IMG/VR virus record: IMGVR_UViG_3300033996_001430
Location: 1 to 64,000 of that record
Reading direction: 5' to 3' (one strand)
Source of the DNA: a virus
DNA length: 64,000 nucleotides
In this document: piece after piece, positions 1,383-9,309 of the stretch
Position numbering within the stretch: the first letter of the stretch is position 1
Layout: every line of letters starts with the position of its first letter
Notes under the pieces: model-generated
Databases searched by the model: none
What the model was told of the DNA's origin: nothing
What the model saw: only the letters and a program-made list of their open reading frames with translations
Made by a program: the position numbers and the translations under genes

Positions 1383-1763
1383 TTATAAATTATCCAAAAT
1401 TGATCCTGATATTTCAGAACTTATAAAATCAAAATCAATATTCTTTCTACCCATATTCATTAAGTCAGTGATATTTTCATTGTAAACATCCTCATGAATA
1501 TCAGCCAATTCTCCATACTTTTCTCTAAATTCATTTTGGTATTTTTTTAAAATACTATCAAAATCAATATTGTTTAAAATATTATTAAACATTTCTTGAA
1601 GCTCCGCATCCATTTCAAAATATAGGTCAGAAGCATATTGATCTGCTTGTTTAAAATTTTCATAATAAAATTCATCTTCATCTGACTCTTCATCTGACTC
1701 TTTAACTAATCGTTTAATAATTTTAGTTAAATCAGATTCTGTTAATTTAATAATCTTTTTCAT
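1383..1763 (-). CDS. Leader-peptide protein, acidic, unknown function
   Basis: Encodes 126 residues from MKKIIKLTESDLTKIIKRL (class D leader, L-T-E at 7-9). The six codons upstream in frame lie in the promoter box, so I take this ATG. The leader is followed by a run of Asp/Glu/Ser and a helical body rich in Asp, Asn and Ile. I do not recognise the fold. The leader nearly matches that of the partial gene at 1-241. Confidence 0.72.
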   Translation of the reverse strand: MKKIIKLTESDLTKIIKRLVKESDEESDEDEFYYENFKQADQYASDLYFEMDAELQEMFNNILNNIDFDSILKKYQNEFREKYGELADIHEDVYNENITDLMNMGRKNIDFDFISSEISGSILDNL

Positions 1764-1767
1764 AACA

Positions 1768-1776
1768 ATAAATATA
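1768..1776 (-). promoter_or_regulatory. TATATTTAT box
   Basis: Exact 9-mer 4 nt upstream of the ATG at 1763. Confidence 0.5.
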
Positions 1777-1898
1777 ACCACCCGTTAATTAGTTCGGGGT
1801 AGTTCCAATTTTTTCCCAAAAATTTTTCCAGAATTTTTTTTACGAATATTTCATTTACGCCATTGAACCCCCTTTCTACCTGTCAAAAAGTCATATAT

Positions 1899-1924
1899 GG
1901 GGGGGATACGGAGGGGGGGAGGGG
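1899..1924 (+). other. G-run tract, possible G-quadruplex
   Basis: Two runs of seven G and one of four G lie within 26 nt, and further G-runs follow to about 1956 on the same strand. This is striking in such an AT-rich genome. The tract sits in the 283-nt gap between 1763 and 2047, which has no gene. It could fold into a quadruplex in single-stranded DNA or RNA; no function is shown. Confidence 0.45.
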
Positions 1925-2046
1925 TACCTATGTCAGATCCCCCATGAGGGAGGGGGTGTGCCAAACTATAAGGGGATCCCTACAAGTTATTAACAATATG
2001 GTTGTTGATAAGTTTACTTATGAGAAGTTATTAACATGACAACCCG

Positions 2047-2550
2047 TCAGTCATCAAATTGTGGTATGTTACTATCTTTGGCTATGTTGATACTGTCTAT
2101 GTTAATGGTTCTTGGTTTGTGTAATGAATCCAATGCCCAACTGGGGATCTGATTTTCGGGGGTATTACTATATCGGTTCACCCTCATGTTAACAGGTAGT
2201 TGACTATATGCCATAGTGATGAACTTCTCCATCTGTTTATTAAACCTCCATCCTGTGATGTCTTCGTACTTTTCATCAAAGAAGTGTACAACGAATGACA
2301 TATCATCACTATCATCCATATAGAACTTCCATAGTCTTGGGTTATTAATAAACTTTTCTCCTATAGGTATGTTAAAGTACTTACTGAGTGTCAATGGATC
2401 TATTGTTAACTTGATCCCCAACATACTCTCGTAACTATTGAAGGGGTGTTTCTTTGATAGTGTGAGTGATACCACGAATGGATATTCTGATTGGACTATA
2501 CTCTCCAAGATCTTTAATCCCTGTTCTTGTTTTCTTGTTAACATATTCAT
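2047..2550 (-). CDS. Hypothetical protein
   Basis: Encodes 167 residues, probably cytosolic and mixed alpha/beta, with no leader, signal peptide or membrane segment. I recognise no family. A near-match to the TATATTTAT box (TATTTAT) lies just upstream at about 2551-2559, so it is likely transcribed on its own. Codon use matches its neighbours. Confidence 0.65.
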   Translation of the reverse strand: MNMLTRKQEQGLKILESIVQSEYPFVVSLTLSKKHPFNSYESMLGIKLTIDPLTLSKYFNIPIGEKFINNPRLWKFYMDDSDDMSFVVHFFDEKYEDITGWRFNKQMEKFITMAYSQLPVNMRVNRYSNTPENQIPSWALDSLHKPRTINIDSINIAKDSNIPQFDD

Positions 2551-2594
2551 ATAAATATTAGGTTATGTCAAAAATTATCCGTACCTTTGTTATG

Positions 2595-2665
2595 TTGGTG
2601 GTTAAGTCCGAAACGGGCTGGGGGAAAGATAATCCCCTTGGAGTGTAGACTCCAACCTGCCTTAT
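2595..2665 (+). ncRNA. Candidate structured RNA or 5' UTR element
   Basis: Three small hairpins stack here. CCGAAACGG lies at about 2608-2616. GGGG at 2621-2624 pairs with CCCC at 2634-2637. A perfect 7-bp stem, TTGGAGT/ACTCCAA, spans 2638-2655. They lie just before the plus-strand gene at 2683. No poly-U follows, so it is not a simple terminator. It matches no riboswitch or ribozyme that I recognise. Confidence 0.35.
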
Positions 2666-2682
2666 AAAAAAAAATAAGGAAT

Positions 2683-2880
2683 ATGGTTTTTTTACATAAT
2701 GCTCTTGTCCCCCATGTGGAATTTACTTATACTTACATTATGAGAAATAGTATAGAAGTATTTGTTGTGTTGGGGTCACTCCTGTTCGGGATGGCGTTAA
2801 TTAATTGGGTACATAATTTTACCCCCTCGTTTATTTATAGAGATGAAACTGAAATAGTGATTGAAGATGATATTGCTTAA
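2683..2880 (+). CDS. Small single-pass membrane protein
   Basis: Encodes 65 residues, or 46 if the ATG at 2740 is used. One membrane segment (roughly residues 25-43, ending GMALINWV) is followed by a short acidic tail. AAGGA at about 2676-2680 would serve the first ATG. It is on the plus strand, opposite to most of the window, and overlaps the next tiny membrane gene. A holin- or spanin-like role is possible but unsupported. Confidence 0.5.
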   Translation: MVFLHNALVPHVEFTYTYIMRNSIEVFVVLGSLLFGMALINWVHNFTPSFIYRDETEIVIEDDIA

Positions 2881-3031
2881 GATCTTCCTATGGATGATTG
2901 TCGTAACCTTGACACTCATAACCTCACTATCAGTATGTGTCTTCATCATGACCAAGTTCCCCAAGTCTAAAGTGGGGAATTGGATCCGTAATCATATCAT
3001 TACAGATGAAGACCTTGAACCCCCAATCTAA
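2867..3031 (+). CDS. Small N-terminally anchored membrane protein
   Basis: Encodes 54 residues starting MILLKIFLWMIVVTLTLI. A long hydrophobic N-terminal helix (about residues 2-28) is followed by a short soluble tail with Lys and Glu. It overlaps the end of 2683-2880 by 14 nt in another frame and reaches the 3' end of the convergent gene at 3028. Two overlapping one-helix genes could be a lysis pair, but nothing diagnostic is seen. Confidence 0.45.
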   Translation: MILLKIFLWMIVVTLTLITSLSVCVFIMTKFPKSKVGNWIRNHIITDEDLEPPI

Positions 3032-3327
3032 CGTTGATCATTAAGGTAGTTCTCTACCTCACTTAATGAATGATCACGGATTAGTTTATTTATAGATGAA
3101 AGATCCTCACTACTCAGTGGGGATTTTTTGTGTATGTACTCTATCACATCCCCCATGTCAGTTGAAGTCAATACCAAAAAGTTTTGAACAATTGGTTTCT
3201 TTAGTCCCTTTGTAGTCACCTGTTCATAAACACACGTGCCAGAAAAGTTATGGTGACAATATGTCAGGGTTATGGTACCACCACTTTTGTTAATAACTTT
3301 GTTGAAAACTTCTAATATCTCTGTCAT
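3028..3327 (-). CDS. Hypothetical protein
   Basis: Encodes 99 soluble residues. The N-terminal half looks like a beta-sheet region (ITLTYCHHNFSGTCVYEQVT) and the C-terminal half is helical. No family is recognised. It converges on the small plus-strand genes and is followed upstream by the large non-coding region. Confidence 0.55.
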   Translation of the reverse strand: MTEILEVFNKVINKSGGTITLTYCHHNFSGTCVYEQVTTKGLKKPIVQNFLVLTSTDMGDVIEYIHKKSPLSSEDLSSINKLIRDHSLSEVENYLNDQR

Positions 3328-3600
3328 AGGGGGGAATTGTTAATAAATAAATATGTTAATTTTCTTGTTTTTGTCAAAATGTCAGTCGTGCTTTGAATAC
3401 CACACAATGCTTTTCCCACTTTTCCCCACTTGTAGTATAGTAAATGGTTCCCACCTTTTACCACCACTATTGGTCCTGTTGCTATGGTGAGAGTGAAAAA
3501 ATCCCCTCTGTAGATACCTACAGGACCACTTTTTTAGGTATATGAAAAGTCCAGCGAAAACTACATAGTTATAGTTCATTGAGCGTGTGTAGACATTTAT
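3328..3600. other. Gap with one weak ORF
   Basis: I see no convincing gene here. A 65-codon minus ORF (3382-3579) has an odd Trp/His/Arg-rich composition, no resemblance to neighbours and no promoter box. This is the proximal part of the roughly 1.1-kb non-coding region that continues to 4403. Confidence 0.4.
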
Positions 3601-3747
3601 GTCGTTAGTAGATCACTTATAGATAACTAATAGATCATTAAAAGATAACTTCAACGACCACTTTAGTGGACCTTTCAACCTTTGACCCCTTAAAAATAGA
3701 CAACTAATATAGGAAGTAAATGAGTGGTAATTAGTGGGTGATCTTTT

Positions 3748-3786
3748 ATATCATTCTCATCAGGTTTAACCTGACCTTAGTGATAT
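3748..3786. repeat. Nested palindrome
   Basis: A 15-nt palindrome, TCAGGTTTAACCTGA (3760-3774), sits inside an outer inverted pair, ATATCA/TGATAT. It could form a cruciform or bind a dimeric protein. Confidence 0.55.
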
Positions 3787-3841
3787 GATTCATACCCTTT
3801 CATCTACCAACTAATAACACACCATAACAATTACCTTCATC

Positions 3842-3896
3842 AAGACCATTGGTCTTCCATACAATTACACATAATGTGTTACGCAAAATGTGTAAT
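3842..3896. repeat. Cluster of palindromes
   Basis: AAGACCATTGGTCTT at 3842-3856 is a perfect palindrome with one central base. ATTACACAT (3864-3872) and ATGTGTAAT (3888-3896) form a 9-bp inverted pair, and ACACATAATGTGT nests inside it. These look like operator or origin sites. Confidence 0.55.
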
Positions 3897-3943
3897 GGAT
3901 TTGTCTACTTATAAATGGGGTCATTAGTTTATGTGGGGGAAAT

Positions 3944-4010
3944 TTATACCCGATAGGGACAGAATTATACCCGATAAGGTATAATCATAAAAACATTATA
4001 CCCGATAGGG
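3944..4010 (+). repeat. Three iteron-like boxes TTATACCCGATARGG
   Basis: Near-identical 15-mers lie at 3944-3958, 3965-3979 and 3996-4010. The start-to-start distances of 21 and 31 nt correspond to about two and three helical turns, so a protein could bind them on one face of the DNA. This suggests a replication initiator or regulator array. Confidence 0.6.
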
Positions 4011-4039
4011 TGTAAATAGAAAATATAAGGTTGTGAACT

Positions 4040-4347
4040 TATATACGTATTTATCCGTATATATACGAATCCATATACGAATGGTTTACACTAACCTGTT
4101 TACTGTAAACAACATCATAGATAAACGGATATATTCCGATTAACCTATTATATAATGTAAACTTTCTATACCTGAGAACCTCATCATGTAAACGAAATGT
4201 ACATTACAGTAATCCCCATTACGATAAAGGATATGTGGTAAAATATAGGACAGATCCTTAATAGAAATGTAAACGGTAAATAACTTACATTTTACCGTAT
4301 GGTCTGAATATGACGGTAAAAGAGTATAGGATAAAATTAGGAATGAA
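4040..4347. other. AT-rich non-coding tract with GTAAAC boxes
   Basis: No gene is visible. The tract holds repeated ATATACGAAT words, a GTTTACTGTAAAC palindrome near 4099-4112 and several further GTAAAC or GGTAAA boxes on both strands. Together with the iterons and palindromes upstream it is the best candidate origin or major control region in the window. Confidence 0.4.
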
Positions 4348-4394
4348 ATCCGTAGTGAGTTTACGAACGGTAGGATGGAATGAGTAAATTGATC
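4348..4394. repeat. 47-bp direct repeat, copy 1
   Basis: Nearly identical (one mismatch) to 7314-7360 in the same orientation. The two copies bound a block of four minus-strand genes. Each copy contains GTGAGTTTACGAACGGTAGG. They may be recombination footprints or shared regulatory sites. Confidence 0.85.
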
Positions 4395-4403
4395 ATATAC
4401 TCT

Positions 4404-5093
4404 TTATACTTTCCTTAGTTTTAATAATTTACTTATATCCATAGTAACATTCTTTGGTACGTGTGTTGGTGATAATGTTTCTTTCACATCTACTTTTGTT
4501 TTCTTCGCCAAATCATATATTGTTTTCTCTTCCGTTCCCACATTATATATTCCTTTCACATCAGAATTAATTAATCCCACAACCAATGATGATATTACGT
4601 CAGTGTAGTCGGCATTTGTTTTTACATCTGTCCACGCATGGTCATAAGTAAATGGATTATCTTTGTGTGATAATCTACAGATAAGATAATTGTTTGACAT
4701 TAACTCTATATGTGAATCACCTAATAGTTTAGTATATGAATACCAATTATTATCGTGTACAGGAACGTCGGTTTCTTTTGCTAATTCTACTGAGTTTGCG
4801 TATACATAGTCCGTTGATATATGTACTAACTTTGATCCCGTCTCATTACAATACGTTACAAGTTGTGATACAAATTTATAGTTAACATTCCATTGTTCTT
4901 CTTTTACGTTGGAGTAGGTGTTTGTGTTTGCAATACAGTTTACAATTACGTCATATCCGTTCATCTTATGAACCCATTCATCAAAATTATTTACATCTAT
5001 GTTATCCTTACCTCTTGATAAACTATCCCACCTTGTTTGGTAGGTTATCTCCCTTCCTAATTTTCCTTGTCCTAAAACTAATACTTTTAACAT
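4404..5093 (-). CDS. RmlD-like dTDP-4-dehydrorhamnose reductase (SDR)
   Basis: Encodes 229 residues of the extended short-chain dehydrogenase/reductase family. The Rossmann motif GQGKLG is at residues 8-13, followed by HISTDYVY (about 93-100) and the catalytic Tyr-xxx-Lys in YSYTK (about 119-123). By family it would reduce a nucleotide-linked 4-keto sugar with NAD(P)H. It is somewhat shorter than cellular RmlD (about 290 residues). A possible pathway partner, an RmlC epimerase, lies far away at 37314-37814. Sugar modification of DNA, virion or host surface is inference. Confidence 0.8.
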   Translation of the reverse strand: MLKVLVLGQGKLGREITYQTRWDSLSRGKDNIDVNNFDEWVHKMNGYDVIVNCIANTNTYSNVKEEQWNVNYKFVSQLVTYCNETGSKLVHISTDYVYANSVELAKETDVPVHDNNWYSYTKLLGDSHIELMSNNYLICRLSHKDNPFTYDHAWTDVKTNADYTDVISSLVVGLINSDVKGIYNVGTEEKTIYDLAKKTKVDVKETLSPTHVPKNVTMDISKLLKLRKV

Positions 5094-5111
5094 ATTCTAA
5101 ATATAATAAAA

Positions 5112-5137
5112 AATCCCCCATTTTTAAATGGAGGATT
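5112..5137 (-). terminator. Rho-independent terminator
   Basis: Stem AATCC..CATTT/AAATG..GGATT with a small internal mismatch, then a T-run on the minus strand. It lies after the gene at 5164-5691. Confidence 0.75.
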
Positions 5138-5163
5138 AGTTATTTTTTTATTTGTGTAATATA

Positions 5164-5691
5164 TTATTCTTTAATATATTTTCTACCGTTCTTGATATAA
5201 AAAGAATTACTTGGGTGAGTCGTTATATCTTTAATTTCTCTTCCAAGTAAATCATAGTAATTGTTATCCATTAATGACGAATTTTGAGTTTGTTCAGTAA
5301 GTGATAACGAATTACAATCGTTAAGATTAGTTCCTAAACGAACGTAAGACGAATTATTTTGATCAGTGAATGTAACAATGTTTCCATCGCAACTAAATAC
5401 CATAAGACTAACCAAGATATTTCCAAAATTGTAATCTATAGTAATCGTATTATTAGTCACGGAATAATTTTCTGTCCCTGGAATGTGATTACCATCTCCA
5501 GCCTCAAAGGTGTTGTATAAGGAATCACAATTTCCTGCTATACAATAATAAGTAAATCGTTCACCATTTTCAAAAATATACATCGTATTGTCAAAGTTTG
5601 GCATTTTCCATTTACCTTCAATTGTGTTGTTTTGTGAGAATGTGTTGGTTGTGATCAATAGTAGTAGAGCTCCTAATAGTAATTTTTTCAT
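5164..5691 (-). CDS. Secreted protein with short T9SS-like C-terminus
   Basis: Encodes about 175 residues from MKKLLLGALLLLITTNTFSQ, a signal peptide. I use this ATG because the upstream in-frame Met-Tyr-Thr stretch would precede the signal peptide unnaturally. The body is beta-rich with several Cys. The C-terminus (YYDLLGREI ... KYIKE) resembles a shortened type IX secretion type A sorting domain. It lies in the repeat-bounded cassette between two terminators. It is probably exported by the host during infection. Confidence 0.7.
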   Translation of the reverse strand: MKKLLLGALLLLITTNTFSQNNTIEGKWKMPNFDNTMYIFENGERFTYYCIAGNCDSLYNTFEAGDGNHIPGTENYSVTNNTITIDYNFGNILVSLMVFSCDGNIVTFTDQNNSSYVRLGTNLNDCNSLSLTEQTQNSSLMDNNYYDLLGREIKDITTHPSNSFYIKNGRKYIKE

Positions 5692-5744
5692 AGTTTTTGT
5701 TTTTTTATAAGTATACACATTATAATAATGTTTGTAAATAAAAA

Positions 5745-5768
5745 ATCCCCCACTTTACAATGGAGGAT
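5745..5768 (-). terminator. Rho-independent terminator
   Basis: ATCC..CCA/TGG..GGAT stem followed by TTTTTTATTTA on the minus strand, after the gene at 5793-6818. Confidence 0.75.
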
Positions 5769-5792
5769 CTTAATTATTTTATGTGGAATGTA

Positions 5793-6818
5793 TTATTTTA
5801 TAATTCTTGTTGTATAGAATTTACCACCATCATCTGTAAGAGTAATAACATATGTACCACTACTTAATGTATCAGAGTTAAACTGAATGTTCTTAGTGAA
5901 ATACTTTTGTTGATATACACATTTACCGTCAATTGACATGATCCTTAGTTGACCACTGTTTGAAGGAGTATTGATGTTTACAACACCCGATACAGGGTTT
6001 GGCCATACTTTAATGTTGTTGGTTAATTCTGTTACACCCACAGTATATTCAGGAACAATATGTAATGTGTAGTCCGTTACTAAACTACCAGGTGACCAAA
6101 AACCTAATGTGTCAATTGTAAATGTTAGACATGAATCAACAACACAACCGTCTAAAGAACTTGCCGCTAAACATACGTTATATGTTCCTGTCGAGATATA
6201 GTTCACTGTTGGATAAGGTAAATCAGATGATTGTCCGTTTCCGAAGTTCCATGTCCATGAAGTTGCGTTAACTGTTTGACATACAATAAAAATTCCATTT
6301 GGTTCTGTAACTAAAGAGTCAGCAACAAAGTACATACCAATTGATGGAGTTGCCTCAATTAATCCATCACAGTTGTTATCAATACCATCATAACATAGTT
6401 CGGTTGCTCCTGGATAGACAGTTGGATCAAATGGATTACAATCAATATTATCCATGAACCCATCAAAATCTGAGTCTTGGTTTTGAAGTACTATTGTAAA
6501 TGTCTGAACCCCTTGTCCAGGACCAAGATATATTGTTTCATTTATACAAGACTCACCTAAACATGGTGAAGTATAAATCGCACAGATACTAACATTTAGA
6601 CTATCAATTGCAGGTACAACCGCCACATAACTTCCTGTAGGTTGTTGTGCGAAAGTAATGGATCCTTGAACCCCACCTCCATAATAGTTTCCGAACAATG
6701 TATATGGACATCCGCCAAGGTTAATTACATCAACGTTAAACGACGTTAATACTTGTGATGATACACTCAGTCCAATGAATGTGAAAAGAGTTAAAAAGAG
6801 TAATTTAATTTGTTTCAT
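5793..6818 (-). CDS. Secreted PKD-domain protein with T9SS sorting domain
   Basis: Encodes 341 residues. The order is: signal peptide (MKQIKLLFLTLFTFIGLSVSS), an unassigned beta domain, a Ca/metal-binding type motif (about 125-152, with CYDGIDNNCDG), a PKD fold (about 185-235, with WNFGNGQ and STGTYNV) and a C-terminal type A sorting domain (about 270-341: VWPNPVSG ... GTYVITL ... RIIK). That domain is used by type IX secretion, which is known only from Bacteroidota. The protein is therefore probably made for the infected host's own exporter. It follows 6840-7235 by about 20 nt and is likely cotranscribed. Confidence 0.85.
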   Translation of the reverse strand: MKQIKLLFLTLFTFIGLSVSSQVLTSFNVDVINLGGCPYTLFGNYYGGGVQGSITFAQQPTGSYVAVVPAIDSLNVSICAIYTSPCLGESCINETIYLGPGQGVQTFTIVLQNQDSDFDGFMDNIDCNPFDPTVYPGATELCYDGIDNNCDGLIEATPSIGMYFVADSLVTEPNGIFIVCQTVNATSWTWNFGNGQSSDLPYPTVNYISTGTYNVCLAASSLDGCVVDSCLTFTIDTLGFWSPGSLVTDYTLHIVPEYTVGVTELTNNIKVWPNPVSGVVNINTPSNSGQLRIMSIDGKCVYQQKYFTKNIQFNSDTLSSGTYVITLTDDGGKFYTTRIIK

Positions 6819-6839
6819 TTTTGTTTTTTTTTATTTGTT

Positions 6840-7235
6840 TTATTTTAAAGGTATTAAATTGTAAATCCAAGCAAAGTCATTGTATTCAATAGCAAGAAAA
6901 TCTTCCCCCGATTCATTTTCTATTAAATAAAGTCTACAACGTTGTCCTGCCGTGTCATATGCGTACCAATATACTGCCGATCCTTCTACTTCCACATCTT
7001 CAGAATCCGAATAGATTGTATAGTGTTGACGTTGTGTCGAGTTAATAGTTATCACTGTTGGTTCAATCATAACCAATATGGACTCAATTACCTTAGGTCC
7101 TGACCAATCAAAATCTCCTGTTAATGTGTTTTTAACCCCCACATTTAATGTGGTTGCTCTTGCGTATGCGGCATCTTGAGTATACCCCACTAATAATAAT
7201 AGAGATAGTAAAAGTGTCGTTATTATTTTTTTCAT
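6840..7235 (-). CDS. Secreted protein, unknown function
   Basis: Encodes 131 residues with a clear signal peptide (MKKIITTLLLSLLLLVGYTQ) and a beta-rich mature part containing one Cys. No sorting domain is seen. It is the first gene of the secreted-protein cassette. A host-like promoter, TTG-N20-TACCTTT, lies at 7253-7282. Confidence 0.65.
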   Translation of the reverse strand: MKKIITTLLLSLLLLVGYTQDAAYARATTLNVGVKNTLTGDFDWSGPKVIESILVMIEPTVITINSTQRQHYTIYSDSEDVEVEGSAVYWYAYDTAGQRCRLYLIENESGEDFLAIEYNDFAWIYNLIPLK

Positions 7236-7252
7236 AGTTTTGTTTTTTGTGT

Positions 7253-7286
7253 AAAGGTAAGCAATTTTACCTTACTTGTCAATAAA
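7253..7286 (-). promoter_or_regulatory. Host-type (Bacteroidota) promoter
   Basis: On the minus strand, TTTATTG (7286-7280) and TACCTTT (7259-7253) are 20 nt apart, close to the Bacteroidota -33 TTTG and -7 TAnnTTTG consensus. The start codon follows 17 nt later. Confidence 0.5.
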
Positions 7287-7313
7287 GACTATGGGATTAA
7301 ATTATGAATGGAT

Positions 7314-7360
7314 ATCCGTAGTGAGTTTACGAACGGTAGGATGGAATGAGTAAGTTGATC
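7314..7360. repeat. 47-bp direct repeat, copy 2
   Basis: Same orientation as 4348-4394 with one mismatch over 47 nt. It lies between the secreted-protein cassette and the HNH gene. Confidence 0.85.
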
Positions 7361-7382
7361 CTATAATCTTTAATAACTTTGT

Positions 7383-7413
7383 TTTGATATACAAATAATA
7401 TTAACTATATTTG
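7383..7413 (+). promoter_or_regulatory. Host-type promoter of HNH gene
   Basis: TTTG (7383-7386), 19 nt, then TATATTTG (7406-7413) matches the Bacteroidota consensus exactly. The ATG at 7420 is 6 nt downstream, so the mRNA would be nearly leaderless. Confidence 0.6.
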
Positions 7414-7419
7414 TTTATT

Positions 7420-8220
7420 ATGGAAGATAAAGTTTGTCGTAAATGTGAATTATTACAACCACGAGAAAATTACTATAAGAACATCAGATCAAAAGACGGA
7501 TTAACCATTGATTGTAAATCATGTGTGAAAAGTTATGTGAAAGAAAACAAGACCGATGAGTCCATTAAAATGAGTCAACTTAAAAAGAGGGCTAAGAAAA
7601 GAAATATGGACTTAGAAGATATCATTAAAGAAGATAACATTATTGAAGAATCTAAAAGATTAGGTATGAAATATTGTTATAGTTGTTTAAGAATTTTAGA
7701 TAAGTCTTGTTTCGGTAAACATAAAATATCTTCTGATGGTTTAAATACTGCCTGTAAAGAATGTAGGGTTAAGGTAACTCGCGATTATTATATAAATAAT
7801 GTGGAGACTATCACCAAACAAAAATCTATATACACCAAAAACAATTTGGGACGCATTGTTAAACGTCAATCTAAATACACTAAAAAAAGGATGGCTGAGG
7901 ATCCCATGTTTCGTTTGACCGTTAACCTAAGAAAGAGAATTAAAAACTATATGAAAAGTATCGGGATTAGTCCTAAACTATCTAAAGAAACTCAGGAAAT
8001 GGTTGGTTGTTCACCACAATCACTAAGAGAATATATTGAAAGTAAATTTGTTGGTGGAATGTCGTGGGACAACTATGGTGTTAACGGATGGCACTTGGAT
8101 CACATAATCCCATTGGCTTCCGCAAAAACCAAAGAAGAAATAATTAAACTTAATCACCACACTAACTTACAACCCTTATGGTCCATTGAAAATCTTAAAA
8201 AAGGTTCTAAGATTATTTGA
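7420..8220 (+). CDS. HNH endonuclease with two zinc-ribbon modules
   Basis: Encodes 266 residues from MEDKVCRKC; the TTG nine bases upstream overlaps the promoter. Two CxxC...CxxC ribbons of the same type lie at about residues 5-34 and 80-112. A basic linker and a C-terminal HNH core follow (WHLDHIIPL, NHHTNLQPLW, ENLKKGSK). By family it cleaves double-stranded DNA, as free-standing homing endonucleases do. It is on the opposite strand to the cassette next to it, beside the 47-bp repeat, and may have mobilised this segment. Confidence 0.85.
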   Translation: MEDKVCRKCELLQPRENYYKNIRSKDGLTIDCKSCVKSYVKENKTDESIKMSQLKKRAKKRNMDLEDIIKEDNIIEESKRLGMKYCYSCLRILDKSCFGKHKISSDGLNTACKECRVKVTRDYYINNVETITKQKSIYTKNNLGRIVKRQSKYTKKRMAEDPMFRLTVNLRKRIKNYMKSIGISPKLSKETQEMVGCSPQSLREYIESKFVGGMSWDNYGVNGWHLDHIIPLASAKTKEEIIKLNHHTNLQPLWSIENLKKGSKII

Positions 8221-8363
8221 TCAGGGAAACCAATCTTAATAACTTTCTTCTTAAATGCTCACCCCTGACTTTAAACCTTTTATCTAAATCAGTTAAGAAC
8301 TTATCTAATGATTTGTTTGGTCTCTTCCCTTCTTATTCTTGTTATGGATTCTTGTAAATTCAA
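8213..8363 (-). pseudogene. Decayed leader-peptide/RR-domain gene
   Basis: A TTG at 8361-8363 begins a class A leader (LNLQESITRIRREET) fused in frame to the end of the upstream gene. After a one-base frame change an open stretch continues (SLDKFLTDLDKRFK ... HLRRKLLRL) and stops at 8213. LRRK resembles the start of the RR-domain. I read this as a truncated, frameshifted member of the leader family. Confidence 0.5.
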
Positions 8364-8645
8364 CCTGCCCCTTACATATTTAACAAGTGGCCTTTCATAT
8401 TTCAAATAAGATTCCCAATAATCCGCATCAGGACCAAACTCATATATGTCTGGGAACTTTCTTGATTTAATAAATTCTCTTGTACCATCGTAGATTGCAG
8501 TATCCAAACTCTCACCATAATCAATCAATTCTTTAACATCATTGACCAACCACTCAAGGTCCTCTTGAGTAAGCCTTCTTCGGATATATATTGGTAAATC
8601 AGTTTCTTCCTTTAATACTTTCCTTATGTGTTCCTGTAATCTCAT
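8301..8645 (-). CDS. Leader-peptide protein with RR-domain and a second leader at its C-terminus
   Basis: Encodes 114 residues. The class A leader MRLQEHIRKVLKEE (L-K-E at 11-13) is followed by YIRRRL and a helical body. The last 20 residues (LNLQESITRIRREETKQIIR) are themselves a leader sequence, evidently that of a decayed downstream gene read through after loss of a stop. It overlaps 8642-8992 by 4 nt. Confidence 0.7.
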   Translation of the reverse strand: MRLQEHIRKVLKEETDLPIYIRRRLTQEDLEWLVNDVKELIDYGESLDTAIYDGTREFIKSRKFPDIYEFGPDADYWESYLKYERPLVKYVRGRLNLQESITRIRREETKQIIR

Positions 8646-8992
8646 CTAATTAATACATTATACATTGATGTAATCCTTTCTTGATAGTGTTTGGTTAACT
8701 GTTTGGCTAAACCATCAATTATCTCTTCAGACATTTCTCCACCATAAAAATACTGTCTTACACTTAATGAAGTTAAAAGATCCATTATAACCATTCTTGA
8801 GAACTCTTCTTCTGTTAATAAACCTGGATCTGACTTAAAACTTTTTATAAATATTTTTGACACATAATGTAATGATGACCCAAATTCCTCATCCATCTTT
8901 TCTAAAATCCTTGAAGGTATTCTACGTAACATCATTCTTATGTAGTTAGTCTCCTCCTTTAATACTTTCCTTATTTGTTCCTGTAGATTCAT
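8642..8992 (-). CDS. Leader-peptide protein with RR-domain
   Basis: Encodes 116 residues. Class A leader MNLQEQIRKVLKEE, then MLRRIPSRIL and a helical domain of about 90 residues related to the RR family. Four-base overlaps with both neighbours indicate coupled translation. No catalytic motif is seen. Confidence 0.72.
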   Translation of the reverse strand: MNLQEQIRKVLKEETNYIRMMLRRIPSRILEKMDEEFGSSLHYVSKIFIKSFKSDPGLLTEEEFSRMVIMDLLTSLSVRQYFYGGEMSEEIIDGLAKQLTKHYQERITSMYNVLIR

Positions 8993-9309
8993 TTTTTTAA
9001 ACCTTTATATAGATCCCTTATTATATCATCAAAATAATCGGAAACCTCCGTAACAAATTCTATTTCTTCTTGTTCAGGTAAATCTTCCCATCCCAATTCA
9101 TATGTATTATACATAATTGCTTCCACCGCCCGTAAAGTTAACTCATATTTAAATTGTTTGTAACTTTTTGTTTCAAAAAACACTTGTCGTGAGTTAGTTG
9201 GAAGTAACAATTTAACCACATCTAAATTAATTCTTCTATGAAAGAACTTTGATTCATTAATGGTACCCATCATTGATTGTATTCTTGATATTTGCTCGTG
9301 TAGGTTCAT
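8989..9309 (-). CDS. Leader-peptide protein with RR-domain
   Basis: Encodes 106 residues. Class B leader MNLHEQISRIQSMMGTINES (I-N-E at 17-19) followed by FFHRRINLD. The body (FETKSYKQFKYELTLRAVEA) aligns by eye with 26130-26933 (FESKSLEEFKYKLVKATLEN), so these two form a subfamily. The function is unknown. Confidence 0.75.
   Translation of the reverse strand: MNLHEQISRIQSMMGTINESKFFHRRINLDVVKLLLPTNSRQVFFETKSYKQFKYELTLRAVEAIMYNTYELGWEDLPEQEEIEFVTEVSDYFDDIIRDLYKGLKK
9264..9309. repeat. Leader-coding DNA repeat, copy 1
   Basis: The 46 nt encoding the class B leader are nearly the same as at 9677-9725 and 10511-10559, with a few mismatches. The genes downstream of the leader are unrelated, so the leader module itself is repeated. 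Confidence 0.7.

Follow-up and report, generated by a model that had tools for sequence, protein, structure and literature searches.

Phage-encoded cargo of the type IX secretion system (T9SS) is already known. Cryophage (Bellas et al. 2020, PMC7468147) encodes type A T9SS cargo, for which superinfection exclusion is one proposed role; its passengers are endoglucanase, GH39 and PA14 proteins, and phages that are otherwise near-identical differ strongly in their cargo genes. T9SS sorting domains have likewise been described in gut phage genomes (PMC6949934), although these are other phages and their T9SS proteins lie near BACON-domain genes or BACON repeats; a comparison of passengers does not figure in the parts of that paper on which we draw. 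Viral databases also hold such proteins: UniProt/BFVD entries named 'Secretion system C-terminal sorting domain [uncultured Caudovirales phage]' (A0A6J5L910 and others) gave a fold match at E 2.7e-9 and carry a viral annotation, and are database records only.

The DNA analysed here (the window, 64,000 nucleotides) comprises bases 1-64000 of a 74,836-base IMG/VR virus record (G000). It contains a unit of genes (4404-7235) flanked by two copies of a 75-nt repeat, with the following features:

4332-4406, no strand: 75-nt intergenic repeat, copy 1, overlapping the 3' end of the gene at 4404; 87% identical to copy 2, with a 38-nt identical core
4404-5093, minus strand: RmlD/NAD-epimerase-like protein, last gene of the unit (PF04321, 59.9 bits)
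5112-5137, minus strand: terminator-like hairpin 3' of the 175-aa gene
5164-5691, minus strand: 175-aa secreted protein with a signal peptide ending TFS before Q and a short T9SS-like tail; 85-86% identical relatives in 4 viral contigs
5167-5259, minus strand: short tail YYDLLGREIKDI...FYIKNGRKYIKE, residues 145-175, recognized by motif comparison only
5742-5771, minus strand: terminator-like hairpin 3' of the 341-aa gene
5793-6818, minus strand: 341-aa cargo made up of a probable signal peptide, a beta domain at the N-terminus, the MopE motif, a PKD domain and the type A T9SS sorting domain
5796-6008, minus strand: T9SS type A sorting domain, residues 271-341 (TIGR04183/PF18962; fold match to the mirolase CTD, 8qb1; motifs as in PMC11285876)
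6138-6299, minus strand: PKD domain, residues 174-227 (PF18911, PKD_4, 31.2 bits, cut-off 27)
6363-6443, minus strand: MopE-type metal-binding motif, residues 126-152 (PF11617, 47.6 bits)
6753-6818, minus strand: probable signal peptide MKQIKLLFLTLFTFIGLSVSS followed by Q, spanning residues 1-22 with the Q at +1 counted in, conserved among relatives
6840-7235, minus strand: 131-aa secreted protein with a signal peptide ending GYT before Q and no T9SS tail, directly upstream of the 341-aa gene
7298-7372, no strand: 75-nt intergenic repeat, copy 2, with the cassette between the copies; further copies in viral loci L166-L168
7411-8220, plus strand: endonuclease VII/HNH-like gene adjoining the cassette (PHROG 1035, 105 bits)

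The first-pass annotation had read 5793-6818 as a protein with a signal peptide, a PKD domain and a complete type A T9SS domain ending RIIK, and both its domains and its coordinates proved correct, the signal peptide being probable from sequence; the MopE motif was absent from that reading. Our assignment draws on Pfam/NCBIfam matches, on AlphaFold and Foldseek, and on relatives in more than 20 viral contigs. The C-terminal domain (CTD) exceeded the curated cut-offs of both TIGR04183 (4.8e-12, 45.7 bits against 23) and PF18962 (2e-11, 44.4 bits against 27), in keeping with type A T9SS cargo. The AlphaFold model of the tail, with a confidence of 63-84 by blocks, is all-beta, and Foldseek matched it to the mirolase T9SS CTD as solved by crystallography (8qb1; 18% identity, 2.4 A, TM 0.73 on the target), so that the tail is predicted to adopt the Ig-like CTD fold. 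Like the CTDs of RgpB, PorU, PorZ and mirolase (PMC11285876), it has a glycine-containing loop corresponding to Lb3b4 (IMSIDGKCV) and a C-terminal lysine (TTRIIK). Other whole-protein Foldseek matches, besides those of the CTD and the PKD domain, had TM values of about 0.2 and were dropped.

The 131-aa protein is a third secreted protein of the unit, missing from the first-pass annotation, and its gene is the probable first of an operon. In L012/L169 a T9SS cargo gene comes after a 79% relative, with one 79-aa ORF between them, and other relatives lie near endolysins. In all three secreted proteins (5164, 5793 and 6840) Q stands immediately past the likely cleavage site, MKQIKLLFLTLFTFIGLSVSS/Q in the 341-aa protein included, in agreement with the Bacteroidetes Q-rule (PMC5837995); signal peptides were called from sequence, by eye and with a simple pattern requiring Q at +1, rather than with SignalP. 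Terminator-like hairpins follow both cargo genes (5 sites in 4300-8300 against 1.5 expected), and no Bacteroidota-type promoter (TTG-N-TANNTTTG) was found upstream of them. Other viral contigs have one or several copies of the 75-nt repeat, some of them located where genes end. L167 has the left flank and one repeat copy in common with the window, followed by a different gene (methyltransferase-like by eye). The repeat may be a seed for recombination. As a structured RNA it was rejected, since its folding was not convincingly better than that of shuffles. We also observed that GC skew is near zero over 1500-9000, against about -0.25 across most of the remaining window, and that 3600-4330 is non-coding, rich in short repeats (ATACCCGATAGGG, TGTAAAC, TATACGAAT) and possibly a replication origin.

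Relatives of the 341-aa protein were found in more than 20 IMG/VR contigs, and PF18962 scored above its cut-off in 18 of the 21 records searched, the other three having been retrieved via the 175-aa protein. Three records carry a T4-type gp23 capsid gene and a terminase gene beside the cargo (G003, 59 kb; G015, 208 kb; G017, 242 kb), so the gene recurs in viral contigs with hallmark genes, as a phage-encoded gene should. No capsid or terminase gene was identified in G000 itself, the apparent T4-type kinship of which rests on shared genes: 24 of its 98 ORFs of at least 90 aa have relatives in G017, and its 65-74 kb run is largely collinear with 9.4-19.9 kb of G017. Since the latter is the site of the G017 cargo, the window cargo lies at a different place than in G017. 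The phages carrying the cargo probably infect Bacteroidota. Searches of INPHARED with the full 341-aa protein and with its tail gave nothing useful, and PHROGs held no T9SS family for the cargo. Further phage-borne T9SS cargoes, of other kinds, were seen at 124-1689 of L115 (G010; 521 aa) and 1492-3144 of L129 (G002; 550 aa, with a cohesin domain). As a separate observation, at least 17 ORFs between 662 and 33107 of the window (for example 8642, 8989, 9306, 9722, 10212, 10561, 15920, 16408, 16903, 17267 and 21010; 662, 1008, 10893, 28686 and 33107; and 1383) start with short leaders that they have in common (MNLQEQIxRI..., MKIIITExQ..., KIIKLTESDLTKI...), while the remainder of each protein is unrelated; the leaders resemble the sequences that act in capsid targeting, or as pro-peptides, in internal head proteins of the T4 type.

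Fifteen contigs (L002-L010, L099 and L104-L108) share one cargo locus, which differs from that of the window and runs from an endolysin (peptidoglycan-binding, GH19-like) through the cargo and an 87-89-aa ORF to a 322-aa epimerase-like gene. The gene upstream of the cargo in L002 was considered as a homing endonuclease, but only a peptidoglycan-binding domain is common to it and ORF 21010, and it is the endolysin. A small lipoprotein-like ORF of 90 aa lies between endolysin and cargo in L105 (7702-7974), L003, L104 and L106-L108; it is a possible outer-membrane spanin or exclusion lipoprotein. One of three unrelated passengers occupies the shared locus: PKD/MopE in ten contigs, a Kazal-type protease inhibitor in four (Pfam 30.1 bits, cut-off 21) and a 243-aa protein without an assigned kind in one. 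Up to and including codon 24, L003 and L105 agree at 99.1% over 3.07 kb; from the first tail codon onwards they agree at 92.9% over 3.25 kb, and their passengers are unrelated. The swap is therefore exact, replacing the passenger and leaving signal peptide and tail in place. A third allele, in L107, is 88.8% identical to L013, at another locus, over the signal peptide, the passenger and the start of the tail. Between the window and L003, dS was 0.25-0.39 for the N-terminal and MopE parts and 1.5-2.2 for the PKD domain and tail; such unequal values indicate that the domains have recombined and that the window gene is also a mosaic. In every domain of the cargo dN/dS was well below 1, and by this measure the passengers are under purifying selection. 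Cryophage resembles this locus in the variability of its cargo genes; here, in contrast, the signal peptide and the tail are fixed and exactly the part between them alternates (PKD/MopE, Kazal or a third passenger), the phages are related to T4-type contigs, and a host chromosome has a copy with another tail.

We consider it likely that the phage uses the host T9SS to put exchangeable passengers on the outside of the cell that it infects; that they are exported during infection, and to what benefit, is what we infer. The cargo would be exported via Sec and signal peptidase I, after which the host T9SS would recognize the CTD and attach or release the cargo at the outer surface. Signal peptide and tail would thus act as fixed address labels for an exchangeable working passenger (PKD/MopE, Kazal or others), and the surface of the infected cell would be redressed by the phage. 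Because a CTD of one species may fail in another (PMC11285876), species-specific CTDs would explain why the tail is kept while the passenger changes. The most likely benefit, lasting until lysis, would be a cell unattractive or unreachable to competing phages, or one shielded from extracellular proteases or grazers, and the Kazal passengers suggest protease control as an additional role. These surface roles (exclusion, protease shielding, adhesion), along with the altered predation raised by the first-pass annotation, are conjectural. The cargo had no similarity to PADLOC models, which says little. In F. columnare, sprA, gldK, gldM and gldN mutations arise under phage, and such T9SS/gliding isolates are phage resistant (PMC9233685), indicating that T9SS-dependent surfaces matter for phage entry. 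Other phages could accordingly be shut out either by masking or by occupation of the T9SS. That the cargo mainly competes for the T9SS, so that host receptor proteins are no longer displayed and the passenger is secondary, would fit the resistance of these mutants and also the existence of 156-aa cargoes, which are hardly more than a signal peptide, a small domain and a tail. We nevertheless think this unlikely, since jamming would need the tail alone, whereas the passengers are real, differing domains under purifying selection.

The first-pass annotation had suggested looking for homologues in host genomes, and full-length orthologs were indeed present in T9SS-rich Flavobacteriales, whose genomes have dozens of profile matches. 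In the MAG loci L019 and L020 they lie beside rpoC. These and other chromosomal PKD/MopE T9SS proteins (G085, G118, G233 and G301) have the same full-length architecture as the phage cargo; L019 and L020 are 29-31% identical to it, and in a tree the phage sequences formed a clade of their own, apart from that of the host proteins. Among 399 Flavobacteriales genomes surveyed, G127 had a phage-type copy (L158), which shares 85.7% identity over 266 aa with a protein encoded by the 208 kb phage and groups with it (support 97/91), while G127's own ortholog grouped with the host proteins. The copy lies just upstream of the gene for the T9SS response regulator, porX (806 bits), and a short tail (IIDETGRDA...NDGTIERKVII) replaces its type A domain; a neighbouring gene has the same kind of tail. 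This suggests transfer of cargo from phage to chromosome in G127, though L158 is a 14.5 kb MAG contig that could conceivably be chimeric, and makes the G127 lineage a plausible host of the phage. The chromosomal orthologs, together with the position of the window cassette between repeats in a region of near-zero GC skew, could also mean that host genes were passively captured, hitchhiking or transduced without specific benefit. We find this improbable given the low dN/dS in every domain, the recurrence in many phages, the conserved place beside the endolysin and the separate phage clade, and the intact copies in all relatives weaken it further.

Phage structural proteins often contain Ig-like and PKD domains. 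It is nonetheless highly improbable that the domains of the cargo serve the virion or its tail fibres, with the resemblance of its tail to a T9SS domain incidental, as the protein has a probable signal peptide and a specific CTD match, its neighbours are endolysin and epimerase-like genes rather than tail genes, and some alleles carry a Kazal passenger. The first-pass annotation had proposed virus-encoded T9SS cargo and named misassembly with host DNA as what would overturn it; although repeats flank the cassette, such a join is, on the sequence evidence, so unlikely that we give it least weight, because more than 20 independent viral contigs, drawn from many metagenomes, carry the cargo, three with T4-type capsid and terminase genes (one of 242 kb) and 15 at one conserved locus, and the phage clade stands apart from the host clade.

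The 175-aa protein at 5164-5691 had been described as having a shortened version of the same domain. Its signal peptide, ending S before Q, was upheld; no match to a T9SS family (TIGR04183/PF18962) was found at E <= 0.1, and the shortened CTD is recognized by motif comparison only. According to PMC11285876, both the glycine-bearing Lb3b4 loop and a C-terminal motif that has a lysine are essential in P. gingivalis; the paper also cites a signal inside the last 22 residues of HBP35. The 175-aa tail has YYDLLGREI and KYIKE, which fit the description of the two motifs, the search pattern having been written after the tails were seen. In L014-L017 the relative of the 175-aa protein is followed by a 338-aa ORF whose secreted product combines an SprB repeat (32.6 bits, cut-off 28) with a short tail containing VVDLMGKET and RYIKE, and the chromosomal copy in L158 has IIDETGRDA. 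Of 711 distinct viral ORFs, 8 matched this post hoc pattern, where shuffles gave an expectation of 0.1; the 8 belong to two families only, and all have a signal peptide followed by Q. The window copy fails the automatic signal test solely because the ORF list places the start of the ORF upstream. Though post hoc, the pattern supports a minimal T9SS signal, and the short tail of the 175-aa protein is a plausible export signal. A short-tail profile (A6) was present in just one of seven host genomes, so the short tail is no widespread label there. Aligning short and long tails automatically yielded nothing informative, and an AlphaFold model of the 175-aa protein was set aside (mean pLDDT 42). 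More tentatively, and with rather less confidence than an even chance, we propose a display cassette in which a fixed signal peptide and a host-matched tail would carry passengers traded among phages and with chromosomes, each variant giving a new coat, and in which short tails would be a second, minimal T9SS signal missed by models.

Within the literature searched, the exact exchange of passengers between fixed tags appears to be new, and so do the Kazal passenger, the short tails and the copy of the phage clade found next to porX; a search for Kazal domains in Bacteroidetes phages found no paper. Should the short tails prove functional, T9SS cargo is undercounted by current HMMs. PKD and Kazal alleles at one locus in near-identical phages are natural allele pairs for testing what is gained from an altered host surface. 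In Flavobacterium, sensitivity to phages is affected by surface structures that depend on the T9SS, and the phages described here encode cargo for that same export route.
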